A stretch of 64,000 bases of DNA from Bacillota bacterium (GTDB lineage: Bacteria; Bacillota_I; Bacilli_A; Izemoplasmatales; Hujiaoplasmataceae). Below, one piece after another: positions 10,218 through 29,161 of the stretch. Each line of letters starts with the position of its first letter. The stretch's first letter is position 1. The notes under the pieces were generated by a model, which worked only from the letters and a program-made list of their open reading frames with translations, was not told the DNA's origin and ran no database searches. The position numbers were made by a program, and so were the translations under genes. Location of the stretch: positions 1 to 64,000 of the forward strand of contig JAHIRM010000003.1 of assembly GCA_018818595.1 (NCBI GenBank), read 5' to 3'.

Positions 10218-12182
10218 ATGGATCGATTTAAATTAGTCTCAGATTATTCCCCCACAGGAGACCAACCCAAAGCAATAGTAGAGCTCGTTCGAAATTTAAA
10301 TTTAGGCGTAAAAGAACAGGTTCTATTGGGTGCGACTGGCACGGGAAAAACATATACAATTAGTCAGGTAATTGAACAAGTCAATCGACCTGTTTTAGTG
10401 CTCGCTCACAACAAAACATTAGCAGGGCAATTGTATTCAGAATTTAAAAACTTTTTTCCTGAAAATAGAGTAGAATACTTTATTTCTTATTATGATTATT
10501 ATCAGCCAGAAGCTTATATGCCTGGAGCGGATTTATACATTGAAAAGGACTCTCAAATCAATGATGAGATTGATGAAATGAGACATGCAGCAACCTCTTC
10601 TTTATTAGAAAGAAGAGATGTCATTGTTGTTGCATCGGTTTCTTGTATTTATGGAATTGGAGATCCAGAAGAATATAAAAAAGGAATGGCAACTTTAAGA
10701 GTAGGAGATTCTTCAGGAAGAGATGCACTTTTAAATAAACTTGTAAATATTTTGTATGTCAGAAACGACATTGACTTTGTAAGAGGTAGTTTTCGGGTTA
10801 GAGGAGACGTGGTAGAAATTTTACCTCCTTATGAAAAAACAAATGGAATACGAGTTGAGTTTGATTTTGATAAAATTTCAAGAATTCGTGAATTTAACAT
10901 CGTTACAGGAGAAATCTATCAAGATTTTACAGTCTTGTCTTTGTTTCCAGCATCACACTTTCTGACGGATAAAACCAAATTAGATGAAGCAATTGCGCGT
11001 ATTAAAGCTGAATTAATAGAAAGAACTAAATATTTTAAAGAACAAAACCATCTTCTTGAAGCAGAAAGAATTACCCAAAGGACTATGTATGATTTAGAAA
11101 TGCTAAAAGAAATGGGTTCATGTAGTGGAGTCGAAAATTATTCAAGGCATCTTTCGTTAAGAAACGAAGGAGAGACTCCGTCAGTCTTAATTGATTTTTT
11201 TCCAGATGATTTTTTACTCATTGTCGACGAATCTCATGTGACGCTTCCGCAAGTTAGGGGAATGTATAATGGAGATCGTTCTAGAAAACAGACTTTGGTC
11301 GAATATGGGTTTAGATTACCGAGCGCTCTGGATAATCGCCCATTGAATTTTGAAGAATTTTTAAATAAAATTAATCAAGTTATTTATGTATCCGCAACTC
11401 CGGGTGATTTTGAAACCGAAAGAGCCGAAAAAATCATAGAACAAATCATTCGACCAACAGGATTAATTGACCCAGAAGTCATTGTAAGATCTTCTTTAAA
11501 TCAAATAGATGATTTGATTGGTGAAATAGAAAGCACTATTTTGAGAAAAGAAAGAATATTAATTACAACCTTAACAATAAAGATGAGTGAAGATTTGACC
11601 GAATATCTCAAAAATCTAGGATACAAAGTAGCTTATCTTCATTCGGAAATTAAAACACTCGAAAGAATGGAAATTATTCGGAATTTAAGGTTGGGAGTTT
11701 TTGATATTCTAGTTGGAATTAATCTTTTAAGAGAAGGTTTGGATTTACCTGAAGTTTCTTTTATTGCTATTTTAGACGCTGACAAAGAAGGCTTTTTGAG
11801 AAGCGCAAGAGCCTTGGTTCAAATCATTGGTAGGGCGGCAAGAAATGTAAATGGAAAAGTCGTTTTATATGCAGATCGAATTACGGACTCTATGAATTAT
11901 GCAATAAATGAAACAAATCGTAGAAGAAGTATACAAGAAGAATATAATGAAAAATATCATATAGAACCAAAAACAATCCTAAAACCAATACACGAATCGA
12001 TTTCGCTTAAAGTTGATGAAAAATCAAAAGACATTGATTATAAACATCTTTCAAAAAAAGAAATTGAAAAAAGTATATCCATCTTAGAAAAACAAATGCT
12101 TTTAGCGGCTAAAGAATTAGACTTTGAACGCGCAGCAGAACTAAGAGATATTATTTTTGACTTAAGAGGGCATATAAAGTGA
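10218..12182 (+). CDS. uvrB: excinuclease ABC subunit B
   Basis: 654 aa, full length. UvrB is the helicase-like damage-verification subunit of nucleotide excision repair and works with UvrA and UvrC. Visible are Walker A GATGTGKT (38-45), the beta-hairpin [13 protein letters not shown] that inserts into DNA, the DESH box ([19 protein letters not shown]), helicase motif VI region QIIGRAARN and the C-terminal UVR motif ([13 protein letters not shown]) that contacts UvrC. uvrA does not follow as it does in many Firmicutes; a VanZ-like gene overlaps its stop codon instead. Confidence 0.98.
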
Positions 12183-12622
12183 AGTACTTATCGCTTTTAC
12201 TTTCAATCGTTTTAACAATGTTTGTATTTTCGATGTCTTTCGTTTCTGGAGAAGAATCTACCTCTCTAAGCTTATCGATAACCACAAAAATGTACGATTT
12301 CTTTCTTTCCGTTTTTCCGAATAGTTTGCTTGACATTGATACACTTCATTTAGTTATTCGGAAGTTAGCTCATTTTACAGAATTTTTTCTCTTAGGCATC
12401 ACTTGGAGTATAACCTTTATATTTTTTCGCATTTCAATTTGGAAATTAATTATTTTTGGATTATTTATTGCACTTTTTGATGAATTCATTCAATTCTTTA
12501 GTGAAAATAGAGGGCCGAGCATAATTGACTCCTTAATCTTTGATTTTCCAGGGTTTGTGCTTGGAAGCCTAATTTTTCAGCTAATATCAAAAAAAAATAC
12601 AAAAGAAACGTCTCATTTATGA
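12179..12622 (+). CDS. VanZ-like family membrane protein
   Basis: 147 aa. It starts with GTG overlapping the uvrB stop (GTGA), so translation is probably coupled. The VanZ signature [16 protein letters not shown] is present, followed by two further membrane helices and [26 protein letters not shown]; the N-terminus has a signal-like helix. VanZ itself lowers teicoplanin sensitivity, but most family members have no known function. The stop codon lies in the terminator loop. The uvrB link may only be shared transcription. Confidence 0.85.
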
Positions 12623-12630
12623 GACGTTTT
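12606..12630 (+). terminator. terminator of uvrB-vanZ-like
   Basis: AAACGTCTCAT (12606-12616) pairs with ATGAGACGTTT (12619-12629); the T run is short and AT-rich sequence follows. The vanZ-like stop TGA is within the hairpin. Confidence 0.75.
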
Positions 12631-12661
12631 AAATTATTTTAAAATTATTTTAAAAAAACAC

Positions 12662-12690
12662 TTGCTTTTTTATTAAAAAGTTAATATAAT
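12662..12690 (+). promoter_or_regulatory. strong promoter of the SHOCT/DUF2089 operon
   Basis: TTGCTT (12662-12667), 17-bp spacer, perfect TATAAT (12685-12690). The predicted start is near 12697, about 165 nt before the first ORF. This is one of the best core promoters in the window. Confidence 0.8.
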
Positions 12691-12696
12691 TAAGGT

Positions 12697-12862
12697 GCAA
12701 GTTAAAAAAGTTAATATTTTACTTGAAAATCAACAGATTAAATGAAATCATAATTAAGAAAGCGAAATAAAAAGTTTTATAGCACTTTAAAAAAACTAGT
12801 AACCCAAAACAAAGAAGAATAATTAAAATTACCTAGACATCCATTTAAAAAGGAGTGATAAT
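12697..12862 (+). promoter_or_regulatory. long A-rich 5' leader of the SHOCT/DUF2089 operon
   Basis: About 165 nt of untranslated leader, far longer than the 9-17 nt leaders common elsewhere here. A CAAGT...ACTTG pair near its 5' end could form a weak hairpin. I recognise no known riboswitch. AAGGAGTGA at the end serves the ORF at 12863. Confidence 0.4.
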
Positions 12863-13033
12863 ATGAAACGCACAAAATTCAATCATCTAGTTATCCCAGA
12901 ATATCTTGTCTTTAATCAAGACTATGCAATTGAAAAATTTCAAAGCATCGATAATGACAGATTGCATTATGAAAAAATTAGATATGCAAATTTAAATTAC
13001 TTAGATATTAACGCTATTCAAAAAAATTGTTAA
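12863..13033 (+). CDS. hypothetical 56-aa protein
   Basis: 56 codons, ATG to TAA, with a strong ribosome site (AAGGAGTGATAAT then ATG). It begins MKRTKFNHLVIPEYLV and ends in Asn-Cys. It is polar and has no membrane segment; Tyr, Asn and Ile are frequent. The next gene starts 18 nt after its stop. No family recognised. The ribosome site, the spacing and the placement behind a strong promoter argue that it is translated. Confidence 0.6.
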   Translation: MKRTKFNHLVIPEYLVFNQDYAIEKFQSIDNDRLHYEKIRYANLNYLDINAIQKNC

Positions 13034-13051
13034 GAATGTTGAGGAAGAATA

Positions 13052-13399
13052 ATGGTAAACAATGTATTGTTTCAATTGCGTGAAAATGAAATAAGCCCTA
13101 AAGAGGCTTATAAAGAATTGTATCCAAAAGGAACTAAGACAAAAATGAGGCGAGCTCATTTTGTGAAACTAAAAATACGCATTCCAGAAGAAAAAGGAGT
13201 TAATCGTTTTTTGGGAGTTTTGTTTTTACTGCCACTTCCTTTATTTCTTGTTAAATTTGGATTGCGATTAGCAAAAAACATTGATGAAGATACACTTCCT
13301 ATGCCAAAAGATGAATTGCTTCGGATGATATCTTATCGAGGAATTAAACTGTCTGTAAATGCCAAATCTGGCGAAAAAATAATTATTAAAACTATATAA
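13052..13399 (+). CDS. SHOCT-like small membrane-associated protein (paralogue of the gene at 13908)
   Basis: 115 aa. Residues 1-25 hold a SHOCT-like helical pair (LRENEISPKEAYKELYP). A beta strand follows (HFVKLKIRIPEE), then a hydrophobic stretch about 52-74 (FLGVLFLLPLPLFLVKFGLRLA) that could enter or lie on the membrane, then an ending DELLRMISYRGIKLSVNAKSGEKI. The layout and the C-terminal pattern match the 130-aa protein two genes downstream, so the two look like diverged duplicates. GAGGAAGAATA precedes the ATG. Function unknown; related small proteins sit in envelope-stress operons of Bacillota. Confidence 0.65.
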   Translation: MVNNVLFQLRENEISPKEAYKELYPKGTKTKMRRAHFVKLKIRIPEEKGVNRFLGVLFLLPLPLFLVKFGLRLAKNIDEDTLPMPKDELLRMISYRGIKLSVNAKSGEKIIIKTI

Positions 13400-13420
13400 A
13401 AATCAGAGGAGAAATGAGTA

Positions 13421-13894
13421 ATGGAAAAAATGGACAAATTAAAGTTTAAAAGAGAAGGATTAAACATTTTCAAAGAAGTAACAAAAGCTAAAGCATCATA
13501 CCCCGTAATTTCTGAGTGCCCTGTATGCCATAATGATTTTGTAGTAGAGAGATTACACTGCGAAAATTGTGGCTCGGCTTTAGAAGGCAAGTTTACACTT
13601 TCCAAATTTAATTACTTAGATACAGATAAACTTTATTTCATTGAAATATTCGTGAAAAATCGCGGAAATATTAAAGCCATTGAAAAAGAGATGGATCTAA
13701 GTTACCCAACCATCAAAAAAATGTTGGATGATGTTATTTTAGAATTAGGCTATTCACCTGATGCAAGTGCGCCAGAAGAACCAGTAGTAGAAGAAAAAGG
13801 ACCTAAGATGTCAAAGTTTGAAATTTTAGAAAAAATTAATAGCGGAGAATTAAGCGTAGAAGCTGCCTCTGCATTGCTAAAGAAAATTAAATAA
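13421..13894 (+). CDS. DUF2089 zinc-ribbon/helix-turn-helix protein
   Basis: 157 aa. Residues about 31-52 form a zinc ribbon with two CxxC pairs (CPVCHNDF, CENCGSAL). Residues about 60-110 are a predicted HTH (KNRGNIKAIEKEMDLSYPT, then a recognition-like helix), the usual DUF2089 layout. After an acidic linker the C-terminus (EILEKINSGELSVEAASALL) repeats the SHOCT-like helix found at the N-termini of both neighbours. It is likely a DNA-binding regulator of its own operon, held by inference. The gene has a good AGAGGAGAA site and lies 21 nt from its upstream neighbour and 13 nt from the next. Confidence 0.85.
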   Translation: MEKMDKLKFKREGLNIFKEVTKAKASYPVISECPVCHNDFVVERLHCENCGSALEGKFTLSKFNYLDTDKLYFIEIFVKNRGNIKAIEKEMDLSYPTIKKMLDDVILELGYSPDASAPEEPVVEEKGPKMSKFEILEKINSGELSVEAASALLKKIK

Positions 13895-13907
13895 GGAGGA
13901 TAAAACA

Positions 13908-14300
13908 ATGGGAAAAGATGAACTAAAACAAGAAAGAATGAAAATATTAGAATTGCTTACGAAAGGAATTATTACTCCTGAGGATGCAGAAAAGTTACTC
14001 TCTGCAATTGGAGATGCAAAAGAACAAGAGCAAGAAGTAATCACAACTCAAAAAAAGAATCAATTTAGAATGTTAAAAGTATATGTAGATTCAGCTGATG
14101 GAGACGAAGTTCGAATTGAATTACCAATTGAATTTGCTAAGTTATTAAAAAGCAAAAAATTCAATTTAGGATCAGTGGAACTAAACGATATGGACATTGA
14201 TGTAGATATGTTAATCCAAATGATTAATAGTGGTGCAATTGGTGAAATTGTAAATGTAAAATCTGCAGATGGAGATATCGTAAGAATTTTAGTTGAATAG
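13908..14300 (+). CDS. SHOCT-like domain protein
   Basis: 130 aa. The N-terminal SHOCT-like helix pair is ILELLTKGIITPEDAEKLLSAI. After a Gln/Glu linker comes a small alpha/beta domain: FRMLKVYVDS, IELPIEFAKLL, DMLIQMINSGAIGEIVNVKS and a last strand DGDIVRILVE. The domain is typical of Firmicutes proteins found with DUF2089. AAGGAGGATAAA precedes the ATG, the strongest site of the operon. No membrane segment, unlike its 115-aa paralogue. Function is not established for this family; an assembly with its two neighbours through the shared helices is a reasonable inference. Confidence 0.8.
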   Translation: MGKDELKQERMKILELLTKGIITPEDAEKLLSAIGDAKEQEQEVITTQKKNQFRMLKVYVDSADGDEVRIELPIEFAKLLKSKKFNLGSVELNDMDIDVDMLIQMINSGAIGEIVNVKSADGDIVRILVE

Positions 14301-14358: not shown

Positions 14359-14392
14359 AAAAAGACTTGTGTAAATAACGCAAGTCTTTTTT
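14359..14392 (+). terminator. terminator of the SHOCT/DUF2089 operon
   Basis: AAAAAGACTTG (14359-14369) pairs with CAAGTCTTTTT (14381-14391), loop of 11 nt, ending in T6. Confidence 0.88.
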
Positions 14393-14430
14393 GATTTCGC
14401 AAAACGACTCTTATATTTTTCCACTAAATA

Positions 14431-29043: not shown

Positions 29044-29161
29044 TAGGTATAAAAAACTTTCTTCTTTTTGAAAGGATTTTGATTTTATAACACAAAAACG
29101 AAAAATTTAACTAAATTCTTATAAAAAAAACAAAAAACTAAAAAAAAATATAAATAAACTA

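Follow-up and report, generated by a model that had tools for sequence, protein, structure and literature searches.

The closest described relatives of the locus considered here are operons in which a DUF2089 protein is encoded in the neighbourhood of Toastrack proteins. In Ravi et al. (2024; PMC11237479), DUF2089 is defined as a zinc ribbon (ZnR), a helix-turn-helix (HTH) and a SHOCT-like domain, and a role in membrane-signal transduction and the control of transcription under membrane stress is proposed for it. The family is common among transcription factors, and the literature searched yielded no experimental work on it. A SHOCT-like domain is also combined with Toastrack in LiaX, a membrane-stress protein, and in YvlB. 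VanZ has been assigned to the sensor position of HAAS/PadR systems (PMC12419801), and published work on these two-component systems describes a VanZ membrane sensor in some of them and a cytoplasmic helical domain that is thought to hold the transcription factor (PMC11237479, PMC12419801). VanZ has also been found to lower the binding of lipoglycopeptides to cells (PMC7146870). DUF2089 family proteins of ~90-100 aa that adjoin a small membrane protein occur in leaderless-bacteriocin clusters, such as those of bawcin (PMC10707071) and enterocin DD14 (PMC7332713), and the SHOCT domain itself is known as a short domain common to otherwise unrelated proteins (PMC3581485).

The window analysed is a stretch of 64,000 nucleotides, contig C3 of a 1.87-Mb assembly. 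It encodes a DUF2089 regulator that resembles those of Toastrack operons in its zinc ribbon, HTH and, by profile match, putative SHOCT-like C-terminus, and the operator predicted for this system is also found in the Toastrack-type genomes tested. The partners of the regulator differ, being two small SHOCT-like paralogues (p115 and p130) and a VanZ-like protein; no Toastrack protein (DUF4097/DUF2154/DUF2807) and no PspC or LiaI-LiaF-TM partner were matched by Pfam among the window genes. Like LiaX and YvlB, p130 has an N-terminal SHOCT-like hairpin, but with the NCBIfam model dapto_LiaX (cut-off 350) it reached only 17.9 bits, over the N-terminal part, and no Toastrack was matched. Neither a HAAS domain nor a PadR-like wHTH was matched in the window genes (Pfam, NCBIfam), and in contrast to the HAAS/PadR systems the SHOCT-like hairpin and DUF2089 stand in their places. 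The partner also differs from that in the leaderless-bacteriocin clusters, and the hairpin is the DUF2089-C variant (PF22746), partly N-terminal, rather than the SHOCT domain. The trio is thus a variant of the DUF2089 stress kind with new parts (p115/p130, a VanZ fusion and micropeptides) that falls outside the Toastrack system. The original prediction, that no function had been described for such a trio, requires qualification: proposals for the architecture of DUF2089 and for its role in membrane-stress operons date from 2024 (Pfam; PMC11237479), although the accessible part of that source does not name a trio with p115/p130 in place of Toastrack. The source genome has a second, short DUF2089 protein on another contig (G000:C31:21389-21526; L002 1465-1922) that lacks the zinc ribbon; the next gene encodes a 51-aa hydrophobic protein, and this pair resembles those in the bawcin and enterocin DD14 clusters.

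Domain architecture of the three proteins

The three genes lie on the plus strand. The first encodes p115 (13052-13399, 115 aa), the membrane form, in which a SHOCT-like hairpin is followed by a hydrophobic membrane-contact segment and a C-terminal beta hairpin. The second encodes the DUF2089 regulator (13421-13894, 157 aa; Pfam), with a zinc ribbon at residues 33-63 (13517-13609; PF22747, Zn_ribbon_DUF2089, 49.1 bits, cut-off 27.6), a helix-turn-helix at residues 66-111 (13616-13753; PF09862, 69.8 bits, cut-off 33.4) and a candidate C-terminal SHOCT-like hairpin at residues 135-157 (13823-13891) that scores below the PF22746 cut-off (14.2 bits against 27) and is supported by its profile match to the N-terminus of p130. 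The third encodes p130 (13908-14300, 130 aa), the soluble paralogue, in which the SHOCT-like hairpin precedes a domain with two SADGD beta hairpins; it is a member of SHOCT-like_DUF2089-C (PF22746, 29.9 bits, cut-off 27; Pfam). A Pfam scan of p115 gave no match, PF22746 included. Relatives of the DUF2089 protein were not found in viral contigs.

The relationship between the three proteins was evident from profile-profile comparison of alignments of 40 sequences each. p115 and p130 match over 105 columns that span the entire layout (probability 96.4%, E 1.2e-9), and the C-terminus of DUF2089 matches the N-termini of p130 (E 2e-7) and p115 (E 1.6e-6), against E values of at least 0.007 (0.007-0.25) in reversed-profile controls. 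The region behind the hairpin of p115 and p130 is related by itself (E 1.3e-6), and on these profile matches the two proteins are full-length paralogues. The hydrophobic stretch of p115 (residues 53-71, FLGVLFLLPLPLFLVKFGL) has a mean Kyte-Doolittle value of 2.2, compared with 1.1 for the best stretch of p130. A helix motif common to three consecutive proteins, a shared layout in the remainder of the 115- and 130-aa proteins, and a hydrophobic stretch in the former had all been read from the DNA earlier, and homology bears out the resulting picture of a membrane form, a soluble form and a DNA-binding protein with a common helix hairpin; the common helix and layout are not chance resemblances. 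The interval originally drawn around the trio, 12662-14300, does hold the three ORFs as described, but it begins in the intergenic promoter (12662-12690) and includes an additional 56-aa ORF (12863-13033).

An AlphaFold2 model of a 263-aa relative in which VanZ and p115 are fused (locus L162) has a mean pLDDT of 92. Five long helices are followed by the SHOCT-like hairpin with its two short helices (147-154/160-167), a strand, two short hydrophobic helices, a further helix and a final beta hairpin. The hydrophobic stretch of p115 corresponds to the short helices 195-204 and 211-220, interrupted at PIPI, and this break at two prolines in the model of the fused relative disfavours p115 as a single-pass membrane protein. 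The model of p130 is of poor quality (pLDDT 64): only the hairpin (residues 3-35) is confident, and the remainder is low. For p130, no convincing PDB relative was found by sequence or by fold, with a model too weak for fold search, and none was found by either route for the VanZ-p115 model.

Gene order and the VanZ-like protein

Among the source genome and 60 relatives, p115 is present in 45 of 61 genomes and p130 in 46, near each other around DUF2089. Conserved gene order, the absence of which the original prediction had listed as part of its refutation, was found: at 74 of the 80 loci recovered with p130 on genome contigs the trio has the same order, in relatives that are not independent samples, and the trio is also present in further families of the class. 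Of the remaining six loci, L168, L187 and L204 are truncated where their contigs end, and L201, L211 and L212 have no p115 at that position. In some families DUF2089 is paired with a HAAS-like and a beta-repeat protein, domain names read from the sequences, in an arrangement resembling the published Toastrack operons. At the Clostridium cadaveris locus (L211), the genes behind DUF2089 and p130 encode a p115-like protein that lacks the SHOCT-like hairpin and an ABC transporter; upstream are two proteins that resemble polymer-forming (bactofilin-like) repeats.

Upstream of the trio on the same strand lies the gene for a VanZ-like membrane protein (12179-12622, plus strand, 147 aa; PF04892, 47.9 bits, cut-off 30.1). 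It is a separate gene in the window, and VanZ and p115 form a single fused protein at 11 of the 80 loci. A terminator-like hairpin with an 11-bp stem at the end of vanZ (12605-12630, plus strand) implies that the trio operon probably starts anew behind it. Behind the operon, a terminator-like inverted repeat (14361-14393, plus strand) reads AAAGACTTG ... CAAGTCTTT, followed by a T run.

Promoter and predicted operator

The promoter (TTGCTT-N17-TATAAT, 12662-12690, plus strand) aligns with the promoters of relatives and reads TTGCTT-N17-TATAATTAAGGTGCAAGTTAA. When up to 3 mismatches are allowed, the last 21 bases of this promoter sequence have a single occurrence in the source genome, at the trio promoter, and nearly always no more than one per genome in relatives, mostly directly upstream of the trio. 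Before the -35 box is an 11-bp phased AT-rich repeat (TTTAAAATTAT, 2.6 copies, 12627-12655, no strand assigned; TRF), a candidate degenerate operator array; at the corresponding position in relatives sit ATTAA/TTAAT dyads at steps of 10-11 bp. The -10 box is followed after 10 nt by a dyad GTTAA-AAAAG-TTAAT (12701-12715, no strand assigned), a candidate operator over the transcription start. In counts that AT-rich promoters inflate, an ATTAA-N5-TTAAT dyad is present in 33 of 62 upstream regions (any dyad in Markov shuffles, at most 6), a dyad 10 nt past the -10 box in 19 of 52 aligned promoters, 16 of which share exactly the same offset (shuffles, at most 2), and dyads spaced by 10-11 bp before the -35 box in 34 of the 52 (shuffles, at most 5). 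Gene-linked positions and reversed-pattern controls speak against base composition as the source of the dyads; genome counts of the reversed pattern were used as the control because the upstream regions of other genes are less AT-rich (57% vs 71% in trio promoters).

A 36-bp form of the ATTRAT-N3-WTTAAT operator, ATTRATNTTWTTAAT-N6-ATTRATNTTWTTAAT, was derived from Izemoplasma-type promoters and scored at up to 3 mismatches, giving 46 matches in 21 genomes as against 2 for the reversed pattern. At this threshold it is absent from the trio in the window, which has only the downstream dyad and the 11-bp repeat. In 32 genomes of other families the form has 57 matches, 33 of them in the 1 kb upstream of DUF2089, and such an upstream match is found in 23 of the 26 other-family genomes with a scored DUF2089 and in 8 of 8 Toastrack-type genomes, the type being assigned by reading of the sequences; the remaining matches in other families amount to ~0.46 per Mb. 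Because the presence of the element goes with the DUF2089 gene rather than with the genes around it, DUF2089 is probably the protein that binds it, and an operator upstream of its own gene predicts autoregulation. The location of one dyad at the transcription start slightly favours repression; cooperative binding or activation are possible roles of the phased sites upstream.

Predicted regulon and small open reading frames

With regard to genes away from the trio, many of the other Izemoplasma-type operator matches precede p130 paralogues that are unlinked to the trio and adjoin an ABC transporter (G052, G053, G043, G049, G054, G055), and at two loci (L227, L229) the operator precedes an MFS transporter. 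In Acholeplasma-type genomes it is found before an ABC exporter (L233, L236) and before a lipoprotein (L234, L235); transporter identities are from Pfam, run on examples. At L219-L225, the unlinked p130 paralogue lies behind an ABC transporter operon, in several cases before sdaA, which in the window lies behind the trio instead.

At several sites (L219-L224, L226, L237, L238) the operator also leads into tandem ORFs that have good ribosome-binding sites and encode 22-50 aa; at L225 an array of this kind is present, but no 36-bp operator was scored. Tandem arrays of the same size range occur in the operons of further relatives (L143, L144, L154, L171, L216), and the arrays lie behind the same operator or promoter or before transporters. 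Inside trio operons, small ORFs are found before VanZ-p115 (the PxxYW type, 1-3 copies), in the gap between p115 and DUF2089, or in that between DUF2089 and p130. One array comprises MNEAMIRTYEKIKTNEAIRKIR with two close copies behind it. Substitution counts gave dN < dS in every pair of the PxxYW type, which favours constraint at the protein level, and favoured such constraint in many pairs of the other types, not in all. Neither the PxxYW type nor micropeptide family A4 has a Pfam match, and no description of operator-linked tiny-gene arrays was found. In the window, the 56-aa ORF at 12863-13033 (plus strand) has a strong ribosome-binding site, is putatively coding, and occupies the slot of the 33-45-aa micropeptide ORFs of relatives; it has no family match (Pfam, NCBIfam) and no PxxYW motif.

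It is conceivable, and proposed here only tentatively, that DUF2089 proteins head a widespread regulon of the Izemoplasma and Acholeplasma types whose hallmark output is tandem, fast-evolving micropeptides of 22-50 aa, acting at the membrane or on the hairpins of p115, p130 and DUF2089 as effectors or feedback ligands of a stress relay. Micropeptide arrays of this kind would add a new class to the regulated small proteins.

Proposed function and alternative explanations

The fusion of VanZ to the membrane form and the conserved operator before DUF2089 make a sensing relay more likely as the function of the trio. We favour, with somewhat more confidence than doubt, a one-component-like relay for membrane stress: DUF2089 would regulate its own expression, with p115 as its partner at the membrane and p130 as its partner in the cytosol. 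DUF2089 would bind the 10-11-bp-phased ATTAA/TTAAT half-sites around the promoter of its own operon, controlling that operon and a small regulon. Membrane or antimicrobial stress would shift the balance of SHOCT-like contacts among DUF2089, p115 and p130, with p130 acting in the cytosol, and the shifted hairpin contacts would alter how strongly the operon and, in relatives, efflux-transporter and micropeptide genes are transcribed. The swap of shared helices between partners put forward in the original prediction may also occur among these proteins. That the operon is induced by stress is suggested by VanZ, by the transporters and by the published analogues. With a predicted operator, an efflux-pump regulon and a membrane/soluble paralogue pair, the DUF2089 system becomes directly testable.

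The hairpins might alternatively be mere membrane or oligomer anchors, so that each protein docks alone, helices are not exchanged, DUF2089 is autoregulated, and p115 and p130 are effectors forming a membrane coat or scaffold. Ravi et al. predict that SHOCT-like domains tether disparate domains to the inner leaflet, unlinked p130 paralogues without an adjoining DUF2089 fit an effector, and p115 homologues that lack the hairpin adjoin DUF2089 (L107, L110, L211). However, the hairpin is also carried by the DNA-binding protein, for which permanent anchoring at the membrane would be odd, and an autoregulated operon with membrane and soluble paralogues better fits a titration circuit, which leaves the anchor a possible but less probable role. 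Constitutive, non-signalling function in a housekeeping cluster held together by slow genome rearrangement is very improbable; uvrB, sdaA and rlmD likewise keep their positions within the family, but in other families the trio is intact and was not seen beside these neighbours, and its own promoter and an operator common to unlinked genes argue for regulation.

A further reading takes the fast-evolving ORFs of 22-50 aa as the product of the locus, a toxin, bacteriocin-like or signal peptide, with the trio, VanZ and the transporters providing immunity or export. It accounts for the tandem ORFs that follow the operator at several unlinked loci and have ribosome-binding sites of their own, for the selection on many of them as proteins and for transporters in the regulon, and short DUF2089 proteins do occur in leaderless-bacteriocin clusters. 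Those proteins are of the short form (89-98 aa), though, and many trio operons have no such peptides. The micropeptides are also very hydrophilic (mean GRAVY -1.08, charge +2.4), and such strong hydrophilicity is not known from leaderless bacteriocins. A peptide locus of this kind is considered improbable, and the membrane-stress relay is retained as the preferred explanation.

Host and genomic setting

The public genomes of relatives carry titles such as Candidatus Izemoplasmatales, Acholeplasmataceae, Tenericutes and Bacillota MAGs, and include isolates, for example Peloplasma aerotolerans. Candidatus Izemoplasma has been described as lacking a cell wall (PMC8397711). A domain search found no PBP transpeptidase domain in the assembly, compared with its presence in 10 of 14 control genomes, and for this reason the membrane is probably the outer barrier of the host. 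The conserved three-gene set probably senses membrane damage in the wall-less Izemoplasma-group bacteria and their relatives, in which the DUF2089 relay may be a main membrane-stress response.

Besides the promoter repeat, the sole TRF match in the window is a short AT-rich tandem repeat with a period of 19 (29123-29161). A trio on a contig assigned to a Thermoplasmata archaeon MAG (L181) looks identical to that of a Mollicutes MAG (L182), and the archaeal label is likely a binning error.
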